From contig JACIYJ010000004.1 of assembly GCA_014360015.1 (NCBI GenBank), positions 1 to 64,000 on the forward strand: a DNA stretch of 64,000 nt. Reading direction: 5' to 3'. The position numbers and the translations under genes are program-made. Shown in pieces: positions 22,656 through 61,956 of this stretch (within the stretch, counting starts at the first letter, position 1; each line of letters starts with the position of its first letter). The notes under the pieces are model-generated. The model worked only from the letters and a program-made list of their open reading frames with translations, had not been told where the DNA came from and searched no databases. The DNA is from Candidatus Aminicenantota bacterium. GTDB lineage: Bacteria > Acidobacteriota > Aminicenantia > Aminicenantales > Saccharicenantaceae.

Positions 22656-23777
22656 TTATAAATATTGCTCCCACTCTTCTTTCCTGAATTTCCTGAGTTC
22701 CTTCATCTCTTTCCAGGAGATAATCACCGCCGCTTCTTCGGCCATTTTGGCTTTGCTGTATCTTATTGTTAGAAGGGCCGCCTTCCTGACCACTGGCAGG
22801 TTAAATGCCTGGCTCCGCTGGCTCGGCCAGCTGCTTTTTCCATTTAAATTTCCCTGGCCAGAGCCATCTCCTCCTTTATTAACCTTGCCTCTATCCTCAA
22901 GCAACTTACCCGACTCCATCTCTCCCTTCAGCCTGACCACTGTCAGTGGCCCTTTCACTTCGGCCGTGGTGATGATGATATCAGAATCAAGAGCACTCTT
23001 CCTCACTTTCTCATTATCTCTCTCATCGCGGCCGACAGCGATTATTCCGTCGTCTTCAAAAAACACCCGACCATTCTTAATCAGCTGGATGTCTTCCGCC
23101 AGCAACCGCCCTCGCCACTCCAGAAGCTTCTTCAACCTCTGTGAAAAGCCAGGATCAGTCAGAAGACAGCCGCCGGCCGGTGTTGGATATTCCTTGATTC
23201 CATATTTTGCCGCCATCTCCATCTGTTTTTTCCTCGATCGGCCGCAAATATCCAGCAATCGCTCGCGGTCAACCAACCCCTGTTCTTCCGGTTTGGTTGG
23301 CGACAGAAGCTTTGCGGAAAGAGGTCTCAAAACCAACCCCTTCAAGCCCGACAGTTTTTCCACAATCCCTAAGGCCTGCCTATTCTGCGATTTCGGTCTT
23401 TCTCCCAGCACCTCACCCGTGGCCACAAAATCAGCCCGGTATCTCTCCAGCAGCTGCCCGGCGATTCTGACCATCTGGCCGTGGCAGTCTATACAGGGAT
23501 TCATGTTTTTCCCGTAGCCGTACTTAGGCTTTTCCACTATCTGAATCTCTTCTTCAGTAATATCAACCACGACTAAAGGCCAGCCCTGTTCTTCAGCAGC
23601 CCTGATGGCTTCTCGCGGTCCAAAAAAAAGGCTTCTGAAAGTCACGGCAACAACTTCCACCCCCTGCTCTTCCAAAACTTTTCCGGCCAGAACACTATCG
23701 AGGCCGCCAGAAAGAAGCAGCAGAGCCCGGGCTCGGGCTTTTTTCTCACCTGGAATTCTGACCTCTTTTATTTTCAT
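22656..23777 (-). CDS. PP-loop tRNA-thiolation-like protein with C-terminal NFACT-R_2-like domain
   Basis: A 373-residue cytoplasmic protein. The N-terminal adenylation domain has the PP-loop SGGLDS near residue 23 and later NPCIDCHGQMV and FVATGEVLGERP, which parallels MnmA/ThiI-type tRNA sulfur transferases. The C-terminal region (TPAGGCLLTD, IKNGRVFF, RDERDNEK) resembles the DUF814/NFACT-R_2 module often joined to such PP-loop domains. Between them and the C-terminus there is a Gly/Ser/Asn-rich stretch (plus about 22805-22910) that looks inserted. The exact tRNA modification is unknown. It is probably co-transcribed with the SDR gene upstream (gap 22 bases). Confidence 0.8.
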   Translation of the reverse strand: MKIKEVRIPGEKKARARALLLLSGGLDSVLAGKVLEEQGVEVVAVTFRSLFFGPREAIRAAEEQGWPLVVVDITEEEIQIVEKPKYGYGKNMNPCIDCHGQMVRIAGQLLERYRADFVATGEVLGERPKSQNRQALGIVEKLSGLKGLVLRPLSAKLLSPTKPEEQGLVDRERLLDICGRSRKKQMEMAAKYGIKEYPTPAGGCLLTDPGFSQRLKKLLEWRGRLLAEDIQLIKNGRVFFEDDGIIAVGRDERDNEKVRKSALDSDIIITTAEVKGPLTVVRLKGEMESGKLLEDRGKVNKGGDGSGQGNLNGKSSWPSQRSQAFNLPVVRKAALLTIRYSKAKMAEEAAVIISWKEMKELRKFRKEEWEQYL

Positions 23778-32851: not shown

Positions 32852-35613
32852 CACAGTTCAAATCGGTAAGAAAATTTCACCAGAAAAATATTGTCGCCAG
32901 GAGCGGTGAATAAATTCCCGAGATCACGCCACAGAGAAAACTGCCCTGGATAGGAATAATCGGCCCGATTCTGCGTCCACACTAAATAAAGCAGCGAACC
33001 AGGTCTGTATTCCCATCTCAGCACCACTGTCCCCCGCATCGACTTATAATTAAAATCAGGATTGTAGATAGAAAATGAAGCCGCCGGCCCGCTTCCATCC
33101 GGGTCAATGATGTACTCACTCTCTCCCGCCACAATGGTCGACTCACCCTCACCATACACTAAATAATCATAAGCTCGGGGCCTATTTAGCTGCTTGAACC
33201 GGTCGTACTTGCCCGCCGCAATGAACGGCTGCAAATAAGCCTGCAAACTCAGTTTCGGGGTAAAAATCCAGTTCACCCTGATTTCAGCCGCAACTATCTT
33301 CTGGTCAATCCGGCCAAACACATATCGATTCCCAAACGTCTCGGTCATTAACGGGTCAGCTACTTTGGTCACCCACTGAGTTTCATTCACTTCACGTCCA
33401 AGCTGCGGACCAACCGAGAGGCTGAGATTGCTCATAGGCTTCCAGCGCACAGCAAAATCAGCCCGCCAATCATAAGAATTATTATGGATTCTCTGGTAGA
33501 AAAAGTCGCCTTCAAGTACGACCGGTTTTCGTGAGTCACTGCTGAGGCGCAATTCATTCATAAAGGCCCAGGGCAGCAGAGCCATCGGCCCGCCGCGGGT
33601 CAAACGGTTATTCAAGCTCTCGGGCATAAAAATAAATGTATATTCAAAATCCCACCAGTTATTTAGCACACCTTGAAAACTGGCTGCCAAGCAGCTGAAC
33701 ACACTGTTTCCACCAAAATCGTATTGCCGCGAGCCTCCCCCGATTAGCAGCCACTGCCTGAAGATTTTCCCTGGCTTTGTATGCTGGTAGCCATAGAGCC
33801 CCATTAAATCAATCACATCCGAGCTCGAGCTCTGAAAGCCGGCGTCGTTGGGGTCAAATCCTGGCGACAGGGCTCCCGCCGAAAACAGGAACAATGAATT
33901 CCCCTGCTGCTTGGCCAGTTTAAACTGCCCGCCCCAGCCATTCAGGCTCGTGGCCTCGGGGTCAAGACTGACATGAGTAGCATCGGGCCGCTGAAAATAA
34001 TGGGTCGAAGACTGCTGCAGCCGGTAGATATCATCCTGACTTCCCTGGATAAAAGTTCCGCCAATCCAGCCGCCGACTACCCAAGTCCGTTTCTTATCTA
34101 AAAACGACCAGCCATCAGCCGCTAAGCTGAAGGCATTTTTATTCAAAATGGCCGAAAGCATTTCCGTGTTCAAATCTCTCATCACGCCGGTGGCCATAAA
34201 TCCCATTCCCTGCTGGCCGTCGTTGATGTCTTTCTGAACCCGCAGCACACCATAATAAGTAAGCGGTTCAACTTCATCCTGATAACGATTGCTCATGTCA
34301 TCAACCGTGGCAAACTCACGTCCGGTCAGGGCGCTGATGAAGCCAACATTCCAGCCAGAACCAACCCTCCCAGTTAGCTTGAACGCTCCAAGAATGGTGG
34401 TTCTGTCCGGAAAGCTAACATAGCCATCATGAGTCACATAGCCCTGAGGCTGGCGACCTATTCTCCGGCTGTAGAAAAGACGCGGATTGGGCCAGTTGAT
34501 GTTAGCGTTAAGATAAACCCCGCCCCGGCCGAAGTTATTGAAAATAGATGCCCCCTCAATAAAAAACGGCCTTTTTTCCTGATAATAAGTCTCATAGGCG
34601 CTGAGGTTGATCACCGCCGGGTCAACTTCAACCTGCCCAAAATCCGGGTTCACCGTGACGTCGAGATTCAGATTGCTCTTCAGGCCAACCTTCAGATCAA
34701 AGCCGGCATTGCCTAGATATTTGTGTCCGGTTTCAAACGGGTTGCCAGGTTCTGCCGGACGAAACTGAGCTTGACCGACCGAGTAAGGATACAATTCCAC
34801 CCGCCGCCCAGGGTTGATTTTCTCAATGCCTTCAAGCCTGGCAAAGCGGGAAACATAAGCGTTATCTTCCTTGGGCACCCAGGCAAAGGCTACTTTTTCA
34901 TTCTTGCGTTTGATGGTGCGCTGAAAATTAACGCCCCAGACGTAAACATCCTTTTTGGGAAATCGCAGCTGATTGAAAGGAATGCGCATCTCCAGAGTCC
35001 AGCCGTCTGCCACCCGAGCGGCCTTAGCCTCCCAAATTCCATCCCAGCTTTCGTCTTCATTGACATCGTTAGAAAGAACCTCATCAACGATCGAACCTGA
35101 AGGATTTACTCCAAACAAATAGCCGCTCCGGCGGTCAAAGTACGGATCAACCGCAAAAAAGAACCAGTCAGAATCGACAAAGGAATCACGGCGGCCTAAG
35201 AGCCCAATTACTCCCTTCGGATCAGAATCATGACAGTAGGCAGCTACATAAAGGTTGGTGTCGTCATAGGCCACCCAAACTTCAGTTAATTCGCTGGCTT
35301 TCTCCCCATCATTCGGATCACGCTGAAGAAAATCGCTGACTGGTTCATGGGTCTTCCAGACTTCCTCTTCCAGCAAGCCATCGAGTTTGATGGAGCTATT
35401 GACCCGGAAGGCGTGAACCACTTTTTGCTCCTGAGCTTTCTTAAGAGCTTCCTTGTCGATTTCAGCCGTCCGGTTAACACTTTTACCGGTGGCAGAAAGG
35501 TTGCCGGCTAAAAAAATAAAAAGAACAAAAAATAATAAATTAATCAGATATTCCGGCAGTGAAAAGGACGAATTTTTAATTGCCCTGACCTGTGCGTTCG
35601 AAAAAATCTTCAT
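32851..35613 (-). CDS. DUF5916/CBM9-like outer-membrane protein
   Basis: A protein of about 920 residues. A signal segment (around LINLLFFVLFIFLAG) precedes a carbohydrate-binding CBM9-like domain (IKLDGLLEEEVW, WVAYDDTNLYVAAYCHD, WTLEMRIPFNQLRF). A DUF5916 beta-barrel region follows (NPDFGQVEVDPAVINLSAYE, EKRPFFIEG, LFYSRRIGR) and the protein ends in FSYRFEL, a typical outer-membrane terminus. The ATG at 35613 is chosen because GGAGAAG stands nine bases upstream; the ATG at 35649 has none. Function unknown; similar proteins are thought to handle glycans or transport. A second, broken copy lies at 53996-57032. Confidence 0.87.
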   Translation of the reverse strand: MKIFSNAQVRAIKNSSFSLPEYLINLLFFVLFIFLAGNLSATGKSVNRTAEIDKEALKKAQEQKVVHAFRVNSSIKLDGLLEEEVWKTHEPVSDFLQRDPNDGEKASELTEVWVAYDDTNLYVAAYCHDSDPKGVIGLLGRRDSFVDSDWFFFAVDPYFDRRSGYLFGVNPSGSIVDEVLSNDVNEDESWDGIWEAKAARVADGWTLEMRIPFNQLRFPKKDVYVWGVNFQRTIKRKNEKVAFAWVPKEDNAYVSRFARLEGIEKINPGRRVELYPYSVGQAQFRPAEPGNPFETGHKYLGNAGFDLKVGLKSNLNLDVTVNPDFGQVEVDPAVINLSAYETYYQEKRPFFIEGASIFNNFGRGGVYLNANINWPNPRLFYSRRIGRQPQGYVTHDGYVSFPDRTTILGAFKLTGRVGSGWNVGFISALTGREFATVDDMSNRYQDEVEPLTYYGVLRVQKDINDGQQGMGFMATGVMRDLNTEMLSAILNKNAFSLAADGWSFLDKKRTWVVGGWIGGTFIQGSQDDIYRLQQSSTHYFQRPDATHVSLDPEATSLNGWGGQFKLAKQQGNSLFLFSAGALSPGFDPNDAGFQSSSSDVIDLMGLYGYQHTKPGKIFRQWLLIGGGSRQYDFGGNSVFSCLAASFQGVLNNWWDFEYTFIFMPESLNNRLTRGGPMALLPWAFMNELRLSSDSRKPVVLEGDFFYQRIHNNSYDWRADFAVRWKPMSNLSLSVGPQLGREVNETQWVTKVADPLMTETFGNRYVFGRIDQKIVAAEIRVNWIFTPKLSLQAYLQPFIAAGKYDRFKQLNRPRAYDYLVYGEGESTIVAGESEYIIDPDGSGPAASFSIYNPDFNYKSMRGTVVLRWEYRPGSLLYLVWTQNRADYSYPGQFSLWRDLGNLFTAPGDNIFLVKFSYRFEL

Positions 35614-35684
35614 TTTCGGCTTCTCCAAGATATTTTTTTTGTCTCTCATATAAACGAAGAATTAGGTCAGAAGGTTCACCAAAA

Positions 35685-35805
35685 TGGGGGATACTCTACA
35701 TATTTCCTTTTAATTTTTTATTGAGGGGAAAAAACGGGGGAAAAAACGGGGGACGTCCTACGCAAAAAAACGGGGGACGTCCTACGCGTTTCCTGATTTT
35801 CTTGG
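35685..35805 (+). repeat. Family B cluster with nested truncated heads
   Basis: A diverged copy (35685-35720) is followed by progressively longer heads: AAAAACGGGGG, then AAAACGGGGGACGTCCTACGC (ends 35763), then a full copy with TTTCCTGATTTTC (35771-35801). It lies upstream of the DUF5916 gene and is not at a gene end. Confidence 0.85.
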
Positions 35806-47905: not shown

Positions 47906-48816
47906 AGCTATTAAAACAAATTTTAATCATCAGCGGAAAAGGTGGCACTGGTAAAACCGTTATCTCGGCCGCCCTGGCCAGCATTGTTTCCAGCAAAGTG
48001 ATGGCTGACTGCGATGTGGATGCGGCCAATCTTTATCTTCTCCTCAAACCCGAGATAATAGAGAGTGTGCCCTTTTATGGAGAAAAGAAGGCAGTCGTCA
48101 GAGTGGAAAGCTGCACCGGCTGCGGTCTCTGTCTCCCTCATTGCCGCTTTTCAGCCATAGCACCAACCTCTGAGGGGAAAATAAAAATCGACCATATTGC
48201 CTGCGAAGGCTGCGGGGTTTGTGCCCATTTCTGTCCAGCCAAAGCCATAGAAATGAAAGAGAATATCGCCGGTAATTTATTTGTCTCGCGCACCGCCTAC
48301 GGCCCATTTGTTCACGCTCGGCTGGGAGCCGGTGAAGAAAATTCTGGAAAGCTGGTGACTGAGGTTCGGAAAAAAGCTAAGGAAATCGCCGAAAAAGAAG
48401 GCTTAAATTATGTGATTATAGACGGACCGCCGGGTATCGGCTGTCCGGTGGTGGCTTCGCTATCCGGCGTCGACCTGGCTCTCGTCGTCACTGAGCCCAC
48501 TATGTCCGGGATACATGATATGGAACGGGTAATTCAGGTGGCCAGGCATTTTGGCCTGAAGACGGCCTGTGCTCTAAACAAGTTTGATATAAACCCCGAG
48601 CTTAGCCATGAAATAGAACAATGGTGTCGTCTGAATTCAGTGCCCATCTTAGCCAGAATCCCCTTTGAGGAAACGGTGGTGAAGGCAGTAATCCAGGGAA
48701 TTCCCATCACTGAGTTTTCGGACAATGGCGGAAGCCAGGTGGTAGCAGAAATCAAACAACTTTGGCATAAAATGGGGGACGTCCTACGTGTTTCGGATGA
48801 CATCAAATTACAATGA
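47902..48816 (+). CDS. MinD/Mrp-type ATPase with inserted ferredoxin domain (second)
   Basis: A 304-residue paralogue of the preceding protein: SGKGGTGKTVISAA, CDVDAANL, the ferredoxin motifs CTGCGLCLPHC and CEGCGVCAHFC, and then DGPPGIGCPV. It is coupled to the first ATPase by an ATGA overlap, consistent with heterodimers. Its last residues (KMGDVLRVSDD) are written by a family B repeat (48771-48800), and the frame then runs on to a TGA at 48814; the C-terminus is therefore altered. Confidence 0.91.
   Translation: MKLLKQILIISGKGGTGKTVISAALASIVSSKVMADCDVDAANLYLLLKPEIIESVPFYGEKKAVVRVESCTGCGLCLPHCRFSAIAPTSEGKIKIDHIACEGCGVCAHFCPAKAIEMKENIAGNLFVSRTAYGPFVHARLGAGEENSGKLVTEVRKKAKEIAEKEGLNYVIIDGPPGIGCPVVASLSGVDLALVVTEPTMSGIHDMERVIQVARHFGLKTACALNKFDINPELSHEIEQWCRLNSVPILARIPFEETVVKAVIQGIPITEFSDNGGSQVVAEIKQLWHKMGDVLRVSDDIKLQ
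48771..48800 (+). repeat. Family B repeat coding the C-terminus of the second MinD ATPase
   Basis: AATGGGGGACGTCCTACGTG then TTTCGGATGACATC: an intact head with a diverged tail, in frame with the gene. Confidence 0.8.
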
Positions 48817-48860
48817 CTTTCAAAAATGTAAAATAACTCTTAAAATAAAAGCGGTTGCCA

Positions 48861-49808
48861 ATGGAAAAAATAATTTTCGGTCCGGTGCCTTCGAGGCGCC
48901 TTGGCCGGAGCTTAGGTATCAATAATATTCCTCCCAAAATTTGCAGTTATTCCTGCGTTTACTGTCAACTGGGAAACACCCTGAAGATATCGGCGGCCAG
49001 GTAACCTTTTTATGATCCACAGGAAATTATCAGAGAAGTGGAAGAAAAACTTAAAGAGCTCGGTCAAAGGGGCGAAGCGATTGATTATCTGACCTTTGTT
49101 CCTGATGGCGAGCCAACTCTTGACCTAAACCTTGGCCACAGTCTGGAGCTGCTTAAAAGGTTTAAAATTAAAACTGCGGTTATTACCAATTCGTCTCTTA
49201 TCTGGGAAAGCACAGTCCGCGAGGATTTAACCATAGCCGATTGGGTATCAGTCAAGATAGATAGCTTGATTCCGGAAACCTGGAAGAAGATAAATAGACC
49301 TTACGGTCGGTTAAACCTGAGTTCAATTCTTCAAGGGCTGCTGGACTTTTCCACAGTTTTTAAGGGCCAGTTAGTCACGGAGACGATGATGGTCGATGGC
49401 CTGAATGATAACGCCAGAGAAATAGAAAAGGTCGCGGATTTTCTGCTCAAACTCAAACCCCGGGTGAGCTATCTTTCTGTTCCTACGAGGCCGCCGGCGG
49501 AAAAATGGGTAAGGCCGCCATCAGAAAAGGCCCTTAATGAGGCTTATCAAATTTTCAGCCGAAATGGGCTGGTAGTTGAGCTCCTGACTGGCTACGAGGG
49601 CAATGCTTTCGCTTCCACGGGAAACACAGCTAATGATCTGCTGGCCATTACTTCAGTTCATCCAATGCGAGAGGAGGCTGTGCGGGAATATTTAGAGCGG
49701 TCTGGGAATAGCTGGCAATTAGTCCAAAATCTTATTGAATCAGGCCAGCTGATCAAAACCGAATATCAGGGCCATAAATTCTACCTAAGAAAACTAAAAA
49801 AACGGTGA
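48861..49808 (+). pseudogene. Radical SAM protein with an in-frame TAA
   Basis: Reading from ATG 48861 gives [17 protein letters not shown] and the radical SAM cysteines CSYSCVYC, then ends at TAA 49002-49004. The same frame continues without a shift as PFYDPQEIIREVEEKL, FVPDGEPTLD, VITNSSLI, SVPTRPPAEKWVRPP and so on to 49808, matching the family of small radical SAM proteins with this exact order. One nonsense change therefore splits a 316-codon gene; a sequencing error is possible. The TGA stop (49806-49808) and the last Arg codon come from a family B repeat. Confidence 0.85.
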
Positions 49809-49890
49809 CGCCCTACCTAAAAAATGGGGGACGTCCTACGCGTTTCCTGATTTCCAAAAACGGTGACGCCATACATATTTCCTGATTTTC
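49801..49890 (+). repeat. Three tandem family B units
   Basis: A truncated head (49803-49816, ends CCTACC), a full GGGGGACGTCCTACGCG unit with TTTCCTGATTT (49821-49855), and a second full unit of the GGTGACGCC type (49861-49890). The first supplies the radical SAM stop codon. Confidence 0.9.
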
Positions 49891-50007
49891 CTGCTCCCTG
49901 GCCTTACCTAAAGCGACAGCTATTTTGCTTAAAGCCGGTAATCATTGTAAAGTATTTTATGGAATTTTTGAGGCATAGTTTCATAATCACCGCTGGGAGG
50001 TGGTAAG

Positions 50008-50304
50008 ATGACCTTCTTAGTCCAAGCTTTTGACTATCCAGCACCGCAAGGACCTGAACGAAGACAGGCCTGCCGCCCTGAACATCTTAAACTGGGCGAA
50101 AAGTTATATGCCGAAGGAAAATGGCTCTGGGCTGCAGCCATTCTTAATGAAGCCGGCGACCCCATAGGCACTATCATCATTTGCGATTTTCCCTCCAAGG
50201 AAGCACTCCAGCAAGAATGGTTAAACCGGGAACCGTACCTTGTCAACAAGGTCTGGGAAAAAGTGGAAATCCATCCCATTAAACCCGCACCTTTTATGAA
50301 GTAA
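50008..50304 (+). CDS. YCII-domain protein, copy 1
   Basis: A 98-residue protein of the YciI-like (YCII) family: MTFLVQAFDYP, GEKLYAEGKWLWAAAIL, GSIIICDF-like GTIIICDFPSKE, and the C-terminal PYLVNKVWEKVEIHPI. YCII proteins are small ferredoxin-like-fold enzymes or binding proteins of mostly unknown function. GGGAGGTGG precedes the ATG. A near-identical second copy lies at 53058-53354 with related upstream DNA. Confidence 0.88.
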   Translation: MTFLVQAFDYPAPQGPERRQACRPEHLKLGEKLYAEGKWLWAAAILNEAGDPIGTIIICDFPSKEALQQEWLNREPYLVNKVWEKVEIHPIKPAPFMK

Positions 50305-50314
50305 TGGACGAAAA

Positions 50315-50337
50315 GGGGGACACATTCTTGTGGCCCC
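50315..50337 (+). repeat. Family A-like repeat after YCII copy 1
   Basis: GGGGGACACA, TTCT, TGTGGCCCC: an imperfect hairpin 11 bases after the stop. Confidence 0.55.
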
Positions 50338-50345
50338 AATTTTTC

Positions 50346-50931
50346 TTTGTGTCACCAATTTTTCTTAGCATGATTTTTTCCTACGCCCACTTTTTCTAAC
50401 CTTCTATACCTTACCAACAATTTTCGGCCATCCATAATAAGCGATGAGCACCTCAACAGGAAAAAAACATTATATTTTGCAAATCCGCCCTTCCCACGAT
50501 GATAAACTTACAAAGCCTAAACAAAATCTGAGGGGAGCTTATAGTTTGGAATTTATAGTCAGGCAGTGATAACTTTTATTTTGATTGCCTTTCCTTTATC
50601 TTTTCGCTTCTTATTTTATTATTTACTACCTTTTATTTACTACCTTATTCGCTTCTTACCTTATTCCCTTCAATCTTTTTGGCTAAAACAACAATAGATG
50701 AAATTTAAAAATCAGGTAACGGACAATAGGCACTGCGTTTTATAAAAAATTGGGGAACAAGTATTATGTCCCCCGGTTTATCCTTCCCATTCCCTTATGT
50801 CCTTATTTTTTCTTCTTCAAGCTTTCTTGAAAACAGAGGTTTTTTTCTGTATAATTTCGCTTCATTCCGGGGAATGAAGTCTCCCCCATAAATGCCCGCC
50901 GGCTGATGACTTCTACCAAAAAACCAGATTA
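50346..50931. other. 585-bp spacer without recognisable gene
   Basis: AT-rich DNA with a pyrimidine-rich direct repeat (TTATTTACTACCTT near 50615-50645) and a family A/C-like element (50751-50776: TTGGGGAACAAG with TATTATGTCCCCC). No coding pattern seen on either strand. Confidence 0.45.
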
Positions 50932-51438
50932 TTGGTGAGGTGTATCATGTTTGAGGCTTATCTTACTGCAGCCATCTGGCTTGGTCTGGCTATTCTGGCC
51001 ACAGTCTTAGCCAGTCGGCTGAAAATCTCCATGGCTCTAATGGAAATCATTGTCGGTGCAGCAGCCGGCTATCTCGTTGTGAAATACCTGGGCGAATCGG
51101 CCTTGAGCCCCAATGCCGACTGGCTCAGATTTGTGGCCAGCTCCGGGGCTATTTTGCTAACTTTTCTGGCCGGAGCGGAGCTCGACCCGGTCTCCATTCG
51201 GGCCAAGCTGAAAGAATCCACAGTCATCGGCTTTATCGGCTTTCTGGCACCTTTTGCTGGATGTGCCGCCGTCGCCCGCTTCCTGCTGCACTGGGATTGG
51301 CGAGCCAGCCTGCTGGCCGGCATAGCCCTTTCCACTACTTCCATGGCCGTCGTCTATTCGGTTATGCTGGAGTTCGGTTTTAACCAGACCGAATTTGGTA
51401 AAGGTATTCTTGGGTCGTGTTTCGTCAACGACCTGTAA
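50932..51438 (+). pseudogene. Truncated cation:proton antiporter (Kef/NhaP-like)
   Basis: A 168-residue remnant. It contains only the first part of a CPA2-type Na+/H+ or K+/H+ antiporter, with about five TM helices (WLGLAILATVLASRL, LMEIIVGAAAGYLVV, ILLTFLAGAELDP, ALSTTSMAVVYSVM) up to the family's ACFVNDL-like turn, here SCFVNDL. There the frame stops (TAA 51436-51438) and a family B palindrome follows within 5 bases. The usual family length is about 380-650 residues, so most of the transport domain is missing. No continuation is found downstream. Confidence 0.85.
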
Positions 51439-51440
51439 CA

Positions 51441-51508
51441 AAACGGTGACGCCCTACATGTTTCCTGATTTTCCCCGAGAAAATCAGGAAATATCGTGAC
51501 AGCTACCC
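51441..51508 (+). repeat. Full palindromic family B element at the antiporter break
   Basis: GGTGACGCCCTACATG, TTTCCTGATTTTC, CCCGA, GAAAATCAGGAAA, then TATCGTGACAGCTACC: the clearest complete inverted-repeat unit in the window. Confidence 0.9.
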
Positions 51509-51838
51509 TATTTCCATCCTCATTTCCATCCTCAATACTTAAAACTTTATACCTGTGCTCTTCTGGACATCCACTCATAAAATAAAAGCGGTGAGGATTT
51601 TTGCTTTGTAAGTCTCATTCGTCAAAAGTGTGATGGAAAAAATGTTCAGATTTTTTAGAGCCGTTTTGTAATTGACTTAATGATTTAAATAAATTAAAAA
51701 GCCAAAAAGAGCGACAGGAGTAAACGTCCCCTTCTTTACTCGCCACTTCTCATTTTGTATTTGAATTTTTTCTCCTCAAAATTATAATTAACTAGAAGAA
51801 AGTGTTTGGTCAATTTTTATTAGCAGCTTGAGGCAGCA
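51509..51838. other. 330-bp spacer
   Basis: AT-rich; contains the direct repeat ATTTCCATCCTC twice near 51512-51534 and a family A-like half site (51714-51732, ACAGGAGTAAACGTCCCC). No remainder of the antiporter gene is recognisable. Confidence 0.4.
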
Positions 51839-52912
51839 GTGGAATCGATTTTCTGGATGCTGGAATCTACTGACAATCCCAGGTTTCCCTATAGGATAAG
51901 AATAAAAAAGGGTGAGGAAAATCTTCTTTCCCTGCGGGTTCAGGACAGATGGCCAGGCACCAGAGGCCACATATTCTGTCTGCGAGAAGACCCGGAAGGA
52001 TACTCGCGACCCGGTCAGGAAATAGAAAAAGTCCCGGTAATTTCCCTCAAAAGGTATGGCAAGCGACTGGCTGTGGTTCTGGACCGACCTACCAACAAAA
52101 GATGCGAATTCCTCTTCCTGAAGAAAAAGTACAAGCAAAAAGAAGGCGAATATGAACAGATTTTCTGGCGAACGCGAAGTGCGCTCGTTCAAAGACGACT
52201 TAAGGTCAAGTTAACCACCAGGGGCTCGCCGCAGCTCCACATCATCATCGATAAAAATGAACGTTATCCCTGGAACTTTCCTGGATGTATTGTCGAAAGG
52301 AAGAGCCTGCCAGCCGGAGATTATGCTCTGCTCTACAACGAGAGCATCAAAGCCGTCGTCGAACGCAAGACTTTTGAGAATTTACTGGGTGAGTTCGGGC
52401 GGATGCCGGTTCTTCATCAAACGCTCGGCGAGCTTGAAGCTTATCGCTACTCTGCCCTGGTCATCGAAGCCAATTATGGCGACTTCCTGAATCCACAAAA
52501 ATTAAAATTTTATACGCCGTCTTTCACCTCGAAAGCGATTGCCGAAATACAAGCACTCCATCCGGATTTAAAAATCATCTTTGCCGGCAACCGAAAGTTG
52601 GCCCGGGAGTGGACGCTGAGATTTTTTACGGCCATTCTGGCTCACGAAGAGGATAAGCTGCCGGCAGGCGTCAACGAAGCTCTGGTCAAATATGAGCTCC
52701 CGCTTGATTTTAAAGGCGGTAGTTATTTCGAAATAAGGGAAAAAGTGCTGAAAGAATTGCCGGACGAATTTACCAGAGAAGATTTGGACAATATTTTTGC
52801 CCAACATGAGAAAAAGAATTTACGGAAAGTGTTGGCTGATTTGAAAAAGGAAGGAGTGCTTCAGGTCTCTGGTAAAGGAGCTGGAAGGCGCTGGGTAAAA
52901 TTGCCAAAATAA
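51839..52912 (+). CDS. ERCC4-domain nuclease
   Basis: A 357-residue protein whose central part (about 125-285) is an ERCC4 nuclease domain: IIIDKNERYPW, IVERKSLPAGDYAL and AVVERKTFENLL give the V/IERK-x3-D-type metal site of the XPF/Mus81 nuclease family. The C-terminal 60-70 residues (FTREDLDNIFAQHEKKNL, KKEGVLQVSGKG) resemble a small winged-helix. The N-terminal 120 residues are unfamiliar. The start is GTG 51839, with GAGG five bases upstream; an ATG at 51857 is an alternative. Isolated single gene; role in branched-DNA processing or element biology is open. Confidence 0.82.
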   Translation: MESIFWMLESTDNPRFPYRIRIKKGEENLLSLRVQDRWPGTRGHIFCLREDPEGYSRPGQEIEKVPVISLKRYGKRLAVVLDRPTNKRCEFLFLKKKYKQKEGEYEQIFWRTRSALVQRRLKVKLTTRGSPQLHIIIDKNERYPWNFPGCIVERKSLPAGDYALLYNESIKAVVERKTFENLLGEFGRMPVLHQTLGELEAYRYSALVIEANYGDFLNPQKLKFYTPSFTSKAIAEIQALHPDLKIIFAGNRKLAREWTLRFFTAILAHEEDKLPAGVNEALVKYELPLDFKGGSYFEIREKVLKELPDEFTREDLDNIFAQHEKKNLRKVLADLKKEGVLQVSGKGAGRRWVKLPK

Positions 52913-52923
52913 AAAAGCGGTAA

Positions 52924-52957
52924 AAATGGGGACGTCCTACATATTTCCTGATTTTCC
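52924..52957 (+). repeat. Family B repeat after the ERCC4 gene
   Basis: AATGGGGACGTCCTACATAT then TTCCTGATTTTCC. It lies 12 bases after the stop, in the gene's orientation, and upstream of YCII copy 2. Confidence 0.88.
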
Positions 52958-53057
52958 TTAAAACAACGGCTGTTTTGCTTAAGGTCGGTGATCATTGTAA
53001 ACTATGTTCTGGCGCTGGCGACAAATATTTTTAAAATCACAGCAGAGAGGTGGCCTG

Positions 53058-53354
53058 ATGACATTCTTAGTCCTGGCTTTTGACTATCCGGCACCACAAG
53101 GTCCTGAACGACGCAAGGCCTGTCGCGAAGACCATCTTAAATTGGGCGAAAAGCTCTATGCCGAAGGAAAATGGCTCTGTGCTGCGGGCATCCTTAATGA
53201 AGCCGGCGATCCCATAGGCTCCATTATCATTTGTGATTTTTCTTCCAAGGAAACACTTCAGCAAGAATGGTTAAACCGGGAACCGTACCTTGTCAATCAG
53301 GTCTGGGAAAAAGTGGAACTCCATCCCATCAGACCTGCACCTTTTATGAAGTAA
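53058..53354 (+). CDS. YCII-domain protein, copy 2
   Basis: A 98-residue near-copy of the protein at 50008-50304 (same MTFLV start, DYPAPQGPERR, GEKLYAEGKWL, NREPYLVN and PAPFMK end; roughly ten substitutions). AGAGAGGTGG precedes the ATG at 53058; the frame from 53004 is not supported. The upstream sequence (TTTTGCTTAA, GGTGATCATTGTAAA) also matches copy 1, as does the family B unit before it, so a block of about 0.4 kb was duplicated. Confidence 0.88.
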   Translation: MTFLVLAFDYPAPQGPERRKACREDHLKLGEKLYAEGKWLCAAGILNEAGDPIGSIIICDFSSKETLQQEWLNREPYLVNQVWEKVELHPIRPAPFMK

Positions 53355-53995
53355 AACTTAGGCATAATATGCCAAATTCCTTCTTTACTTATGACCGACA
53401 CCACACTTGCTGCCGAATCTAAATTTAGGGAATACACCTCATTTTTTCACTGCTTTTGGAAAGAACAATTTATATATCGCTATTAATTTGAAAAATCCTC
53501 TGACATTAGACTAATAAAAGGCAAACTTAATCAATCATCCGCCATACTCATTGTTAAAAAGAGTTAAAGATCATGGACCCGCCGCACCGGTTTTCTTCCC
53601 AGTTTTCTAAGATCCGGCCAGACCAAGAAATTAGGTAAATATGTAGGATGTCCCCAGTTTTTTGCCTCGGGAGAAATCAGGAAACGCGTAGGACGTCCCC
53701 GGTTTTTTATCCCCGTTTTTTAAAAAGAAGGCAACATTTTCCCTTCCTTTTATGTATTCATTATTGAATTTGTGCTAAGCTTCAGCGATTTCGATCACAA
53801 ATTCGCGCTCGGGCCTGGTCGGCCAGGAAAGCGCATCGGCCAGGATAGCCGGTCGGCCTCAGCCCGGTCGCTAAGGCTAAAATTAAAAATCCATTACGAA
53901 AAATCCTCATCAGGAGTAAGATAATAAATGAAATCTGCAGGCAAAATCAGAAGTTGCAGCGGCCGCGAGCAGAGCTTTAGCAGAGCTTTAGCTTC
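53355..53995. other. 640-bp region with a family B cluster and GC-rich hairpins
   Basis: No gene recognised. A double family B unit in minus orientation occupies 53627-53702, with a truncated head following. Around 53805-53880 the DNA is GC-rich with repeated GGCC-containing inverted repeats (CCTGGTCGGCCAGG near 53815), unlike its surroundings. Confidence 0.5.
53627..53720 (-). repeat. Family B double unit (orphan)
   Basis: Plus-strand text GAAATTAGGTAAATATG, TAGGATGTCCCC, spacer ending CTCGGGA, GAAATCAGGAAACGCG, TAGGACGTCCCCGG. It has the same two-copy build as 36196-36280 and 60773-60857 but is not at a gene end. Confidence 0.88.
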
Positions 53996-56900
53996 GTGGC
54001 CATCGGCGCCAGCGGTAACAGCCGTAACCGCAACAAATTCGTCCTCATCCGAACTCACAGTAATCGCGCTGGCAATGATTTTAACCTCCATGACTCCAAA
54101 AGCATTCCCGTCAATTGTCCCATCGCTGACAATAATCCAGGGTCCTCTTCCAGAATTTTCCCAGGCAGCACAGCCCTTCCCACATCTGAATTCAATCCGT
54201 CAACCCAGCCCTCCCCAGCTCTCCAAACAAGCCAAGCCAAAAATTCACCAGCGTCTTCTGCCCTTTTTTCCGGCTCTTTTTCTTCTTCTCTAACTCATTT
54301 AACTCATTTTTTCGGCCTTTATATTCATACTATTCTTTCTTTAGTCTTTTTTATTTTTCTTATTTCTTCTATATTTCTGACTTCCAGTCTTAATGCCTTC
54401 GCCCAGGAAAAACAAAAAGCCCAGACTCCCCAAAAGTCTCCGGCCTCAGCCTCCCAATCTTCCCAAATCACTCAAACGGCTCATACCCAGTCCATTTCTC
54501 CCACCTCCCCCAACCCCAACCTCAACCAGAAAAAAATTGCCTACACCCACCGACTCAACCCTCATGCCCCCACCATCGACGGCCGCCTCGACGACCCCGC
54601 CTGGCAAACTGGCGAATGGTTTTCTGATTTTATCCAGTTCCACCCCTATGAAGGACAGCCTCCAACCGAGCAAACAGCTTTCAAAATCGTCTATGACGAC
54701 AGCCACCTCTTCCTCGCCATCCGCTGCTACGATTCGCAACCGCAGACCATAGAACGCCGCCTCAGCCGGCGCGACAACACCTCGGGCGATTACATCCTGG
54801 TCTTCTTCGATAGCCTCCAAGACCTGCGCACCAGTTACTGTTTTGCGGTCAACGCGGCCGGGGTCAAAGCTGATCAGATTATTTCCAATGATAATTTCGA
54901 TGAAAACAATGTTGACATCTCCTGGGACCCGGTCCGGGAAGTCAAAACTGCTATCGACGAGCAGGGCTGGACGGCCGAGATGAAGATCCCATTTTCCCAG
55001 CTACGCTTCGACAACAAAGAGGAACAGGTCTGGGGTTTTGAAGTGATGCCCCAGCTCTTCAGGAAGAACGAAATCTCGCTCTGGCAGCACATTCCCAAGA
55101 ATGCTCCCGGCTGGGTCAGCCAGTTCGGTGAGTTGCGCGGTATTGTGGGCCTGAAGCCGCCGCGCCAGATTGAGATTATTCCTTACACTGTGGGGGCGCC
55201 TACGTTCCTTCCCACAGGAAGCCGGAAACCCATTTTCCAGCGGACACGAAAAAAATCTGTTTGGCGGGCTTGACGGAAAGATAGGACTCACTCATGACCT
55301 GACTCTTAATTTCACCTTCAACCCGGATTTCGGTCAGGTTGAAGCTGACCCTTCGGTCATCAACCTCACAGCCTACGAGACTTATTTTGAAGAAAAGAGG
55401 CCTTTCTTCGTTGAAGGTCAGAACATCACCAATTTTCAGATAACCGGCGGCGATGGTGATTTTTCTTACGACAACCTATTTTACAGTCGCAGAATTGGTC
55501 GTGCGCCACAGATTTATCCTGACACCAGCGGCTATTGCAGTATTCCGCAATCGACAACCATCCTTGGAGCCGTCAAGCTATCGGGGAAAACCAGAAACGG
55601 CTGGTCCATCGGCCTGCTGGAAGCCCTAACCGCAAAAGAAACTGCCTCTATCTACGAGCCCGAGAGCGAAGTTTAAGGGAGCGCGGTGGCTGAGCCGATG
55701 ACCAATCACTTAGTCTTCAGGCTGTCAAAAGATTTCCGGCAGGGTGCCACCATCATCGGTGCGATGTTCACTGGCGTTAACCGCAATCTTGACGAGCAAA
55801 CCGAAGACCTGCTTCATCGCTCCGCCTACACCGGAGGCTTTGACCTTTACCACAGCTGGAAGAATCGGCAGTACTATTTCTCGCTAAAACTGGTCAGCAG
55901 CGGAGTTTTCGGCACAGAAGCAGCGATTCAGCGCACTCAGGAATCTTCGGTTCATTATTACCAGCGGCCGGACGCCGATTACCTGACCTATGACCCGACT
56001 CGGCGGTCACTCTACGGCCATGGCGGGTCAGTAGATTTTGGACGGATGGGCGGGTCAAACCTTCTTTTTGCCACCGGCCTGACCTGGCGCTCGCCCGGGC
56101 TGGAGCTGAATGATGTGGGATTCTTGAGGTCGGCCGATACCGCCATGCAATACCTGTGGATGGGCTACCGCTTCTATAAGCCATTCAGTTTTTTCAGAAA
56201 CCTCAACATCAACTTCAACCAGTGGACTGGCTGGAATTTTGGCGGCGAAAGAATTTTCGCTGGCGGAAATATCAATGCCTGGGCTCAGTTCAAGAATTAC
56301 TGGAGCCTGAGTTTTGGTATAAACCGGCAGTTCAGCGGACTGTCGCAGAGCGCTCTGCGCGGGGGACCGTTGCTCAGAGTGGCACCAGCGGTCAACATCT
56401 GGACCTTCGTCCAGACCGATATGAGGAAAAAGGTGCGCCTGTCGGTGAACGGACAGTGCAGAAAAGCACTGAACGGGGATAATCTCAGCATCAACCTGGG
56501 ACCACAGATTTCATACAATCCAGTGCCGGCTTTTGACCTCTCGCTCAAGCCATCATACTCAGTTTTCAGGAGCGAGCTTCAGTACGTAAACACAGCTGAG
56601 TTCGCGGGCGAAAAAAGATACCTGGTTGGCAAGATTGACCAGAAGACTGTGTCCATAACCATGCGCCTCAACCTGAGCCTGACGCCTGACCTGTCCATAC
56701 AGTTCTACGGAATGCCTTTTATTTCAGCCGGAAAATATAGCCGGTTTAAAATGATAACCGAGCCCAGAGCAAAAGAATGGCAGAACAGGTATCATGTGTT
56801 TGGTGAGAACGAGATTGGATACGATGCGGGAAGCGGGACTTACGCCGTAGACAAAAACGGAGACGGGATTACTGATTATTCTTTTTCTAATCCCGATTTT

Positions 56901-57032
56901 AACTTCTTACAGTTCAGATCAAACCTGGTGCTGAGGTGGGAATACAGACCCGGCTGCACGCTGTTTTTAGTCTGGACGCAGGGCCGAACTGAGTTCGGCT
57001 ACAGCGGCCTGATGGATTTTAGTGGATTTTAA
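53996..57032 (+). pseudogene. Broken DUF5916 outer-membrane protein copy
   Basis: A second DUF5916 gene with three lesions. (1) A one-base shift near the G5 run at 55192-55196: the first frame ends RKPIFQRTRKK, while the correct continuation GNPFSSGHEKNLFGGLDGK is in the next frame. (2) An in-frame TAA at 55674-55676 between EPESEV and GSAVAEP. (3) A missing C-terminus: the protein stops at MDFSGF, about 25 residues before the FKFSYRF-type end of its relatives, exactly where two family B repeats begin. Diagnostic motifs are PTIDGRLDDPAW, NPDFGQVEADPSVINL, EKRPFFVEG and LFYSRRIGR. Its N-terminal 100 residues before the signal segment are Ser/Thr/Pro-rich and odd, with no good start codon. Confidence 0.88.
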
Positions 57033-57086
57033 AATGGGGGACGTCCTATTAAAATGGGGGACGTCCTACGCGTTTCCTTATTTTTA
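57031..57086 (+). repeat. Nested family B units at the DUF5916 pseudogene end
   Basis: AAAATGGGGGACGTCCTA (truncated head) then AAAATGGGGGACGTCCTACG with CGTTTCCTTATTTTT. The TAA of the pseudogene overlaps the first base pair of the element. Confidence 0.88.
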
Positions 57087-57497: not shown

Positions 57498-59051
57498 TTA
57501 CCGCCGGATGAAGCCGGCGCCAAGGACAGCCTCTCCATCGTAGAACACGGCTACTTGGCCTGGGGTGATGGCTTTGTAGGGAGTGAGGAGAGTGACTTTG
57601 GCTGTGTCCGGTATGATTAACTCCGAAATTCCTGACACTGATTCCTCATTTCTTACGTTATTCTTTTTATCTCTTATATTCTTCTGCCCTATTTCATTAC
57701 CCTTGGTGAAGAATCCTGATCTTTCAGTAAGCTTGACTGAAATATCCCTGCCTTCAGCCATGCCGACAGTAGCATTATCAGAAGACATGACAATAAACCG
57801 GCATTGAAGTTCCGGTGATTTGTAGCGCACTTTGACTGTGGCTTCGATTGTCTCGCCGGGAGCGGGGATGCGGGCAATCCAGTTGATATGGTCTACGTAA
57901 AATTTCTGGGTGAGAAGGTCCTTCTCCTCGCCGATGTAGACGGTGTTGGTGGCGGCATCGATTCGGACCACGTAGAGCCGGCCGGTGCTGGCGATGCCCA
58001 GGCCACGTCGCTGTCCGATGGTGTAATTTTCAATGCCGTTATGATGGCCGAGGATGCGGCCGCTTAAGTCTTTGATGGGCCCGGGAGTGCCTTTTTTGAG
58101 AAGCTCGCGGTAATCGCCTGCGTAAAAATCCTGGCTTTCTTCTTTGTCGCTAACGGGAAGGCCGTAGTCGCGGGCGATTTTTCTGACCTCAGCTTTGGTC
58201 AGGTCGCCGAGCGGAAAAAGGGCACGCGCCAGCTGTTCCTGGCTGAGCAGTGATAGAAAATAGGACTGGTCTTTGGAGGCGTCGCGGGCTTTGAGCAGAA
58301 GCCAGCGGCCAGTTGAGTCATCGTGGCTGACGCGGGCGTAATGACCGGTGGCAAAATAATCATGATCAAGGCCCAGCTTGCGGCAGCCTTCAACCAGCAG
58401 TCCGAATTTAATCTCAGCGTTGCATTTAACGCATGGATTAGGTGTCCGGCCGCGGGCATATTCCTCACGGAAGTAATTCAGGATGCGGGTCTCATATTCC
58501 TGATGAAGGTCAACCACATAAAAAGGAATTCCGATGTGGTGGGCGACGGCTTCAGCTTCCTTAATTTCTTCGTCTTCATTGTCGCCGAAGCAGGACAGCC
58601 GGCGGCCTGGGCGGGTCGATGCAGTCGGGGCAGAAGGACAAATGGATTGAGGGGAGCTGGCACACTGGGATGGCTGAGTCGGAGTAGTCGGAGTAGAAGT
58701 CAGGTGCGACTGAAAAAAGTCCGAAGATTGAGAAATCTGAAGTGAGTCGGGTGGCCGGGATGCAGCAGATGATGAAGAGGGGGAGGAAGATTCGGAAGGT
58801 TTAGATGAATCAGACTGTCGAGCTGAGCTCCCCGGGCGTGAACCACCTATCTTTGAGCCACCCTCAGCAGAGTCCCCCGGGCTTAACCCAGTTGTCTCTG
58901 AGTCGGCCATTGCTGAGCCTCCTGGCGGCGAGCCTATCCTCATAGTAACGCCGATCACTTCATAGCCTGCCTGTTTCAGCAGAAGTGCGGCCACAGACGA
59001 GTCCACTCCGCCGCTCATCCCGACCAGCACTCTTTTCCTCTGCGCCATCAT
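57498..59051 (-). CDS. mnmA: tRNA-specific 2-thiouridylase MnmA with large low-complexity insert
   Basis: MnmA thiolates U34 of tRNAs for Lys, Glu and Gln. Conserved parts: GMSGGVDSSVAALLL (PP-loop), GVTMRI, CFGDNEDEE, TPNPCVKCN, FATGHYAR, KDQSYFL, the late GQRRGLGIA and the C-terminal GQVAVFYDG. A Ser/Thr/Pro/Gly-rich insert of about 112 residues (58599-58934) splits the first domain after GVTMRI, and a second charged insert (near 57615-57725, KGNEIGQKNIRDKKNNV) lies in the barrel. Normal length is about 360 residues; this has about 517. The ATG at 59051 follows TATAAT (59058-59063) by 6 bases, so the mRNA may be leaderless. A TTG at 59057 extends the frame. Confidence 0.92.
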   Translation of the reverse strand: MMAQRKRVLVGMSGGVDSSVAALLLKQAGYEVIGVTMRIGSPPGGSAMADSETTGLSPGDSAEGGSKIGGSRPGSSARQSDSSKPSESSSPSSSSAASRPPDSLQISQSSDFFQSHLTSTPTTPTQPSQCASSPQSICPSAPTASTRPGRRLSCFGDNEDEEIKEAEAVAHHIGIPFYVVDLHQEYETRILNYFREEYARGRTPNPCVKCNAEIKFGLLVEGCRKLGLDHDYFATGHYARVSHDDSTGRWLLLKARDASKDQSYFLSLLSQEQLARALFPLGDLTKAEVRKIARDYGLPVSDKEESQDFYAGDYRELLKKGTPGPIKDLSGRILGHHNGIENYTIGQRRGLGIASTGRLYVVRIDAATNTVYIGEEKDLLTQKFYVDHINWIARIPAPGETIEATVKVRYKSPELQCRFIVMSSDNATVGMAEGRDISVKLTERSGFFTKGNEIGQKNIRDKKNNVRNEESVSGISELIIPDTAKVTLLTPYKAITPGQVAVFYDGEAVLGAGFIRR

Positions 59052-59072
59052 GACCAAATTATAGCATTTTTA

Positions 59073-59320: not shown

Positions 59321-60001
59321 ATGCCAAGGTTAGCCAGAATAATCATGCCAGGCATCCCTCACCACATCGTCCAGCGCGGCAACCGAAATCAGGTAGTTTT
59401 CTTTTCGGACGAGGATAAAGAGCTTTTTCTGAAAATTCTGGCCTTTCACTGCCGCAAAGAAAACATTGCCATCTGGTGCTACTGTTTGATGAATAATCAT
59501 TTTCATCTGATTGCTGTGCCGGAAAACCCTGCCAGCCTGGCGCGGGCCATTGGCCAAACTCAGCGCAAATATACCTGGTTTGTCAATGCCCGCAACAACT
59601 GGAAGGGCCATCTCTGGCAGGATCGATTCCAGTCTTTTGCGATGGACGAAATCCACCTATACAACTGCGTCAGATATGTCGAGCGCAACCCCGTCAGAGC
59701 CGGCCTGGTCAACCTGGCCGAAGAATATCCATGGTCAAGTGCCAGAGCCCATGTCTTTGGATTCAAGGACCCGGTCCTTAGCCCTATGCGCGCGCTCTCT
59801 TATATCACCGATTGGAGCGCCTATCTCCGCGGTCAAGAAACAGACGAAGAATTAGAATTGCTGAGGAAGACTTCTCGCACCGGCCGACCACTTGGCAGCG
59901 ATGATTTCGTGCAGCATCTGGAAAAAAACCTCGGCCGGGCTATCAGACCCAAAAAGCCAGGCCGTCATAAAAAGATGATGCCCCTTGCAGTCCACTCATA
60001 A
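59321..60001 (+). CDS. REP-associated tyrosine transposase (RAYT, Y1 HUH family)
   Basis: A 226-residue single-strand DNA transposase related to IS200 TnpA. Signatures: MPRLARIIMPGIPHHIVQRG, the HUH motif MNNHFH (His60, His62), RKYTWFVN, GHLWQDRF, and the tyrosine-bearing RYVERNPVRAGLV (candidate nucleophile Tyr119), followed by YPWSSA. RAYTs act on palindromic REP elements in the same genome. Family B copies in opposite orientations lie on both sides (59073-59273 plus, 60308-60392 minus). No typical IS200 TnpB partner is present. It is the likely mover of the repeat family. Confidence 0.93.
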   Translation: MPRLARIIMPGIPHHIVQRGNRNQVVFFSDEDKELFLKILAFHCRKENIAIWCYCLMNNHFHLIAVPENPASLARAIGQTQRKYTWFVNARNNWKGHLWQDRFQSFAMDEIHLYNCVRYVERNPVRAGLVNLAEEYPWSSARAHVFGFKDPVLSPMRALSYITDWSAYLRGQETDEELELLRKTSRTGRPLGSDDFVQHLEKNLGRAIRPKKPGRHKKMMPLAVHS

Positions 60002-60857: not shown

Positions 60858-61956
60858 AGAAGAAGAGGAAACGGAGAGCAACGAAAATCAGGAAGATTCC
60901 GTAGAGGAGCTTGACCGTGTCGCCCGGCATCTTGATGTTGATTCTGGCGCCAAACACCGTGCCCAGCACGAGACCGAGGGCCAGCAGAGCGGCAATTCTC
61001 AGGTCGAGCGTTCCGGCTTTGTAATAATAAATGACTCCGGGAAGACCCACCGGCGCCAGCAGCGCTCCAAGGGAAGTGGCAATGGCTCTTTTCGGCGGAT
61101 AATGAAAGAAAAGTATCAGAAACGGCACGATGATGTTGCCACCGCCGATACCGAACATCCCGGCCATCACGCCAGCTACGAGCCCCACCCCCACAAGCGC
61201 CAGGAAATGCGGCTTAGAGTGTGATTCGGGGATGCCCCGGGCATCAGAGTTACCTGGGACGTTTGAAGCACCAGCTGGTAATGATGCTGTCCTCATCGAC
61301 TCACTCAAGGCGCCTCCATGAGCCGCCGCGTCCTGATTCATCTGTTCCCGAGCTGACGTTCCATAACCTCCGTTAACTCCACTTACTCGAATCTCAGTAG
61401 TTTCAGATGCAGATGAAGTTCCAACCTGAAAGGATTTTCTTACTCCGTCATATCTCTCTGGTGATTCTGTCACTGATTTCTCTTCAGTCGGAATATGCTG
61501 TTCTCCTTCCTCGACTTTGAGCCCGGGCTTGGCCTGGCCCGGCTTATCATTTCGCTGGGCTCCATCATTTTTAGTTCCAAATAATTTTTTAATTCTTCCT
61601 ACAGGCTTAATAAAAGTCCAGCTCACATACAGGCAAAAAAGTGCATAGAGCTTGCGCATCACATCAGCAGGTAAACTGTGGGCCAGCCAGGCGCCGACGA
61701 CTACCGAAATCACCAGGCCAGTGGCAATGAAGATGGACCCGCGAACATCAATCAGCTTCGCCCGATAATAGGCCATCACCCCCAAAATCCCCACCGGCAG
61801 CAGTATTGCCGCCAATGAAGTCCCCGTGGCTTTAATCAGCGGGAAATGAGCCAGAAGGACCATGGCCGGCACCATGACGATTCCGCCTCCTATGCCAAAT
61901 AGCCCGGAAAATATCCCGGCAAGAAAACCAATAACCACAACTAACATTCCGTTCAT
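60856..61956 (-). CDS. TauE/SafE-type permease with long central insert
   Basis: A 366-residue inner-membrane protein of the TauE/SafE family (sulfite/sulfonate or related anion export). Two homologous halves are visible: GFLAGIFSGLFGIGGGIVMVP with TSLAAILLP, and the second GLVAGVMAGMFGIGGGNIIVP with TSLGALLAPVGLPGV. Between them lies a hydrophilic insert of about 125 residues (61210-61596) rich in Ser, Thr, Gly, Glu and Asp, far longer than the usual loop. The C-terminus is short (LRFLFF) and abuts a family B repeat. No clear ribosome binding site. Confidence 0.9.
   Translation of the reverse strand: MNGMLVVVIGFLAGIFSGLFGIGGGIVMVPAMVLLAHFPLIKATGTSLAAILLPVGILGVMAYYRAKLIDVRGSIFIATGLVISVVVGAWLAHSLPADVMRKLYALFCLYVSWTFIKPVGRIKKLFGTKNDGAQRNDKPGQAKPGLKVEEGEQHIPTEEKSVTESPERYDGVRKSFQVGTSSASETTEIRVSGVNGGYGTSAREQMNQDAAAHGGALSESMRTASLPAGASNVPGNSDARGIPESHSKPHFLALVGVGLVAGVMAGMFGIGGGNIIVPFLILFFHYPPKRAIATSLGALLAPVGLPGVIYYYKAGTLDLRIAALLALGLVLGTVFGARINIKMPGDTVKLLYGIFLIFVALRFLFF

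Follow-up and report, generated by a model that had tools for sequence, protein, structure and literature searches.

The origin of disordered protein in bacteria is mostly explained by selection together with base composition. Disordered linkers and low-complexity inserts are familiar from eukaryotes such as Plasmodium, in which they are hydrophilic, evolve rapidly, and lie at domain borders and in loops. The inserts described here share these traits with the Plasmodium type, but their association is with a single block of the chromosome, not with base composition or the proteome as a whole. The closest bacterial systems are the Rickettsia RPEs, which lie in frame within genes, and the intragenic REPs (GTAG/CGTC), over half of which encode 20-30 residues, and up to 82 (PMC3733652). 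Most REP families are reported to be genome-wide, with T. roseum GTAG-23, which is clustered in blocks, as the exception (PMC3733652).

The present locus resembles these systems in (i) the addition of in-frame residues to many unrelated proteins, tRNA-modifying enzymes included, and (ii) the presence of a RAYT/REP system, that is, a Y1_Tnp gene surrounded by short extragenic GGGGAC...GTCCCC hairpins. RPE and REP inserts are recognisable repeats (PMC3733652), whereas those considered here share no repeat between genes, contain no REP, and reach 186 residues. Likewise, most REP families are reported to be genome-wide (PMC3733652), whereas the present repeats are concentrated in a few islands, the largest of which among those sampled coincides with the inserts. 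A search of the open-access literature gave, among the matches listed, no account of a REP island in which non-homologous inserts cluster and no title on low-complexity inserts in bacterial orthologues or in MnmA.

The window, the whole 64,000-nucleotide stretch analysed, comprises the first 64 kb of C25, a contig of a 2.72-Mb genome (G000). Its tauE gene (60859-61956, minus strand), identified as an open reading frame with a Pfam match, encodes a 366-residue permease of two similar helical halves. The match (PF01925, E 1e-47) falls into two stretches, one per half, which places the protein in the TauE/SafE family. Both halves thus resemble other TauE/SafE permeases, and the difference lies in the interdomain linker, which is 130 aa here and about 25 elsewhere. 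Alignment, composition, and predicted structure all locate a hydrophilic, predicted disordered insert at residues 119-248 (130 aa; 61213-61602, minus strand), confirming the stretch that the first-pass annotation had put at 61210-61596. The AlphaFold model, modest as a whole (pTM 0.49), has ten long helices with 10-residue block means of pLDDT between 66 and 81; over most of the insert the block means fall to 31-53, and residues 128-246 are below 50 almost throughout. This low predicted order in TauE, together with the hydrophilic composition of 14 inserts described below, is that of an intrinsically disordered linker. Foldseek returned nothing at E≤0.001 for the TauE model, and no solved structure is related to the protein by sequence at E≤1.

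TauE matches at E≤1e-20 occur in 29 of 94 genomes of the order; 27 were aligned and two fragments were left out. Six of the 27 orthologues, all from species of the same genus, have linkers of 66-130 residues. The other 21 (nine further species of the genus, two of family f3, and ten from other genera of the same family) have a short linker of about 25 residues and nearly fixed length. The distance from an FxxP motif to the next conserved motif is 30-32 residues in the short set; in the long set it is 73-137 for the five members that the motif pattern picks up, the sixth being missed. Since the six species with expanded linkers group as a single clade (support 98/95 in a 28-species tree of TauE and MnmA core columns), a single gain accounts for the position of the linker. 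DNA similarity among the six inserts is confined to the first 26-30 bases, and to G060 compared with G072 or G070.

MnmA, the tRNA 2-thiouridylase (57501-59057, minus strand; 519 aa), carries two inserts: site 1, of 110 aa, after the VTMRI strand (58605-58934, minus strand), and site 2, of 65 aa, in the C-terminal barrel domain (57603-57797, minus strand). The solved chain 9hln_A has only 13 and 8 residues at these sites. MnmA is matched in 14 of 19 genus genomes, and half of these (7/14) have the site 1 insert, for which one change on the tree suffices and separate gains are not needed. Site 2 is long in a set that overlaps the site 1 carriers and reaches its maximum in G070, whose MnmA (contig C33, 48494-50632) has inserts of 163 and 186 residues and, at 693 aa, nearly twice the normal length. 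A phylum-wide sample yields an MnmA match in 150 of 159 genomes, and the longest one-piece full-length span among the matches listed is 1149 bases, for a model of 351 positions. The best piece from the window covers model positions 48-326 only, with both cuts at its inserts. Other incomplete best pieces among the matches listed comprise three that start at 44-45 and seven that end at about 210-247; one of these seven has a second piece among the matches listed, across a gap of 60 bases.

Comparable stretches had also been proposed for the DUF438, PP-loop, and DUF5916 proteins, and alignment bears out most of the set, TauE and MnmA included, the exception being the location in the DUF5916 copy. 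The DUF438/hemerythrin/PAS protein has a hydrophilic linker between its hemerythrin and PAS domains at about 13239-13454 (minus strand; 13205-13480 had been suggested), up to 37 aa longer than in G074 and G077, which themselves have a Gly/Ala-rich linker there. The ThiI-like PP-loop protein has such a stretch at 22794-22922 (minus strand), but a gain in this species does not hold: of five relatives, three have a longer one (G074, G077, and G071), and it is a variable linker, not one gained by the species of the window. The DUF5916 copy at 32854-35649, to whose N-terminus a stretch had been assigned, has an ordinary signal-anchor-like N-terminus, while the orthologue in G060 is extended by a long hydrophilic stretch. 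The S/T/P/Q-rich stretch lies instead behind a signal-like segment (54404-54529, plus strand) of the CBM9/DUF5916 gene at 53996-57032. That gene is split into three open reading frames in the window, with a frame change near 55.2 kb and a break near 55.68 kb that reflect decay or sequence error, and is a single long frame in G060, G074, and G077.

Insert hosts in the block defined below include MnmA, WecB, the ThiI-like PP-loop protein, a GHL10 glycosidase, an FtsX-like permease, a GGDEF sensor, and a NapH-like protein whose match is under that family's cut-off. In the eight species that have a complete close copy of WecB, its open frame is between 431 and 534 aa long. GlmS, to the right of the block, has an insert confined to G074 among ten genomes with a close copy. 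Beyond the window on the same contig, a CusB-like metal-efflux adaptor (G000:C25, 67020-68504) has a His/Ser/Thr-rich stretch near its N-terminus that amounts to 95 additional residues relative to a sister-genus relative.

Composition was measured in 14 inserts (six from TauE, seven from MnmA site 1, and the single site 2 insert caught). Hydrophobic residues make up 10-21% of these inserts versus 28-54% of their flanks, at an insert GC content of 49-59%. In all 14 the hydrophobic share is lower in the actual frame than in the three other frames read, and 11 are less hydrophobic than all 200 of their base-shuffled copies. Where inserts can be aligned, dN/dS is 0.28-0.69, as against 0.08-0.18 in the flanks (four pairs): 0.47 for G062/G065 at site 1, 0.46 for G074/G075 at site 2, 0.56 and 0.69 for site 1 comparisons with G068, and 0.28-0.60 for site 2 of G062, G065, and G068. 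Values for the G000/G060 and G060/G072 inserts are saturated or unreliable (one is 1.39). Hydrophilicity in the proper frame and this dN/dS pattern make the inserts look translated and constrained to remain hydrophilic, but otherwise loosely held. Both the strong hydrophilic bias and the dN/dS below 1 would also be expected if the linkers had a function under selection, such as that of a tether or of a tail that forms condensates, and genes of shared function lay together. The host proteins are functionally unrelated, however, and sister species have inserts of widely different length and sequence, so that such selected linkers are a very improbable explanation.

The inserts show no common source in repeated DNA. 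Matches among the 14 at E≤0.01 are orthologous (19-30 bp where the inserts begin, and 198 bp for a single close pair), the sole match between different insert sites being 19 bp long, and a comparison of 24 inserts with one another gave no cross-match at E≤0.001. Within the genome, the TauE and MnmA inserts of the window have no second match better than 23-24 bp (E 0.003), and short matches of inserts to other contigs of the genus or family (22 bp; 46 bp at 80%; E 0.005-0.008) were taken as chance. The inserts are therefore not similar copies of one repeat in the manner of RPEs and REPs, and shared repeat DNA was rejected as their source. Decayed REPs are likewise unsupported: the REP motif is present in 0 of 24 inserts, a relaxed search found one match in 7293 nt (0.14/kb versus 0.27/kb in genes), and 31 inserts show no hairpin excess (mean z -0.19, none below -2, against a mean of -0.64 and six below -2 in 48 core controls). 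These results speak against the in-frame spread of a repeated DNA, one of two processes that the first-pass annotation had put forward. Replication slippage was set aside because the weak rise in codon autocorrelation over codon shuffles (combined p 0.02) is the same in core segments, and templating from the neighbourhood because an 11-mer excess (combined p 5e-5) is equalled by core segments.

What the insert-bearing genes have in common is their place on the chromosome. The mnmA contigs of six members of the genus and two of a sister genus were compared by pairing open reading frames through reciprocal best hits, and an insert was called where one protein was at least 20 residues longer and that stretch contained less than 22% hydrophobics. 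On the 396-kb contig of G074, one or more genus members show an insert in 12 of the 40 orthologue groups at 229-297 kb (68 kb around mnmA), compared with 0 of 147 to the left and 2 of 21 to the right of this block. The contrast between block and left side has a Fisher p of 2e-9, for a block that was picked once the map was known; permutation scans that allow for this choice give p of 5e-5 to 3e-4 for G074, 5e-5 to 8e-4 for G060, and 0.007 to 0.01 for G077. Around rpoB, where genes are also better conserved (80% identity), inserts occur in 0 of 112 G000-G074 pairs, so that none of the 259 groups to the left of the block and around rpoB has one. Stratified by identity, the G060-G074 comparison of block versus rest gives 3/6 v 0/27, 2/7 v 0/35, and 1/7 v 0/39 in the bands below 80%, and 0/2 v 0/28 above it; the radius for these bands was picked after the positions had been seen, a choice of the kind for which the permutation scan allows. 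The contrast also persists at each number of partners tested. The clustering thus lends support to the proposal of a common process behind inserts in unrelated proteins.

The strength of the clustering depends on how it is measured. Within 25 kb of the mnmA of the window, the G000-G074 (3/8 v 3/30, p 0.09) and G000-G077 (2/9 v 2/22, p 0.56) comparisons are not significant, and the window's own genome alone therefore does not show it. A cruder dispersion test gives p of 0.003-0.20, and the block excess for G074-G077 is just twofold when all gaps of at least 20 aa are counted regardless of hydrophilicity. The orthology-free scan breaks down through wrong-frame open reading frames at 68% GC, and a high-GC control pair (G051/G059), in which 7 of 163 pairs of proteins were flagged, by eye mostly for that reason, yields no insert rate. 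A few variable proteins might simply happen to adjoin and have been found by sampling around mnmA: the contigs were chosen for holding mnmA and tauE, the species pairs are not independent, and the G000 pairs alone are not significant. Against such chance and gene content stand the permutation scan in G074, the contrast that survives stratification by identity and partner number, and the empty rpoB surroundings, which together make coincidence scarcely probable. The skew of the G074 contig flips near 360 kb, which suggested that the block might contain a replication origin, but dnaA lies on other contigs in the six genomes searched. Beside the block, the segment at G074:C12 300-357 kb has many low-GC3 genes and few genus orthologues, and with its sugar-nucleotide enzymes (matches to UDP-glucose dehydrogenase type and epimerase proteins) looks like a variable polysaccharide locus.

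Point divergence in the block is nearly ordinary. Median dN, block v elsewhere, is 0.140 v 0.111, 0.171 v 0.131, and 0.218 v 0.219 in three species pairs, and median dS 1.11 v 1.09, 1.36 v 1.26, and 1.85 v 2.18, with no significant difference in either (p 0.16-0.90), although in two of the three pairs the block has a somewhat higher dN. Relaxed selection across the lineage, the second process proposed at first reading, is thus at odds with a trait that is regional (12/40 v 0/147 and 0/112) and with block dN and dS not significantly different from those elsewhere. With substitution near ordinary and insertions in excess, a local supply of inserted DNA is favoured over a general relaxation. In the same direction, the frequency of indels of 1-19 residues is raised 1.3-1.9 times in those block genes that lack long inserts (five overlapping pairs, with p<0.05 in one). 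Intergenic gaps also vary more between species in the block (p 0.001 for G060-G074; 0.10 for G074-G077).

The main rival to an insertion-prone block is a merely permissive one, a region of stand-alone genes in which weak or late expression and tolerance of longer proteins let inserts survive that arise everywhere, and whose long spacers would also explain the gathering of REPs. Block genes are indeed spaced further apart and less in operons, gene kind may contribute, REPs lie almost wholly outside genes, and the slight, non-significant rise in dN has the expected sign. Weak expression is expected to raise dN, however, and the ordinary dN of the block therefore argues against permissiveness, as do the dS values and the housekeeping enzymes MnmA, WecB, and GlmS among the insert carriers. 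On balance, a permissive block that accounts for both inserts and REPs is a realistic but doubtful explanation.

The regional clustering of inserts coincides with a RAYT/REP island. A RAYT-like transposase gene, whose Y1_Tnp domain (PF01797) identifies it as such, lies between mnmA and tauE (59321-60001, plus strand), and at least one copy occurs in the block of all six genomes searched; three of the six have further Y1_Tnp matches outside the block, mostly partial or distant. The palindromes around the gene have the form GGGGACAC-NNNNNN-GTGTCCCC, or are GGGGACGT variants, and the REP consensus is GGGGACACCTTCAGGTGTCCCC plus variants, which are not identical between related species. REPs of the GGGGACGTCCTACG type occur at 35-63 kb in the window, with two extragenic copies at 35749-35785 (plus strand) and further exact copies in 48775-57069, at 48775, 49827, 52928, 53688 (minus strand), and 57057. 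Exact hairpins number 28 in G074, 76 in G077, and 11 in G071 genome-wide, as against 0 for the reversed pattern, and the REPs are multicopy short palindromes found almost wholly outside genes. On the sampled genus contigs, the motif occurs mostly 4-28 times per 20 kb in the block (one bin is empty) versus 0-3 times elsewhere; in the sister genus it occurs 1-12 times per 20 kb, unclustered, with totals under the base-composition expectation. Smaller REP clusters lie outside the block at G077:C7 74-111 kb, G060:C11 18-30 kb, and G000:C26 8-18 kb.

The mean number of REP sites within 10 kb is 15-22 for insert genes and 2-8 for other genes. Rotating the labels (an insert in any genus member) reaches the observed proximity in 2-3 of 207 rotations in G074, 8-10 of 176 in G060, and 3-9 of 102 in G077. 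Within the block, insert genes are not significantly nearer a REP (13/18 v 77/142, p 0.21). The motif is dense again at 360-380 kb in G074, adjoining the GlmS insert, and GlmS also adjoins REPs in G060 and G000, where it has no insert, so that REP adjacency is not sufficient. The block is moreover one region seen in related species, and its agreement with the REP island is therefore one coincidence of place; the link between RAYT/REP and inserts is a correlation. The most direct causal version of it would have the RAYT transposase itself make the inserts, with REP or REP-flanked DNA jumping in frame into nearby genes and then decaying. Although RAYT is present in the block of every genome searched, REPs are dense there and sparse on the remainder of the sampled contigs, and intragenic REPs are already known (PMC3733652), this version is improbable given 0 of 24 inserts with the motif, a relaxed match rate below that of genes, a hairpin signal below that of core genes, and no significant gene-level REP enrichment within the block.

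The best reading of these observations, and one rated at just short of even confidence, is an insertion-prone chromosome block combined with selection for in-frame, hydrophilic, loop-located insertions. Disordered linkers would be the product of numerous separate insertions, each in frame and placed in a surface loop or at a domain border, and one block, at about 12 to 120 kb of the contig of the window, would gain (or keep) inserted DNA far more than the other regions sampled. Purifying selection would retain those insertions that are in frame, hydrophilic, and clear of the folded core, after which insert dN/dS would run at about two- to sixfold the flank value, up to the point where orthologous inserts cease to align. 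A raised local insertion rate would then be the cause of the clustering, with the RAYT/REP island presumably marking or feeding insertion; the island may be cause, companion, or marker. More specifically, a local insertion mutator might be tied to the island, in which single-strand nicking or fork breakage at REPs starts error-prone repair, during which genes close by receive non-templated or short filler DNA; this version is rather unlikely.

In this little-studied genus, floppy stretches thus occur in unrelated proteins, housekeeping enzymes among them, and mostly in one REP-rich block, a distribution that hints at a local process by which new disordered protein is built. Unrelated genes that gain long inserts at near-ordinary point divergence would separate insertion supply from relaxed constraint, a question that becomes testable by strain comparison. 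An MnmA, GlmS, or WecB of odd annotated length in such genomes is not necessarily misassembled. If the mutator reading is true, the block would be a standing nursery of new disordered protein segments.
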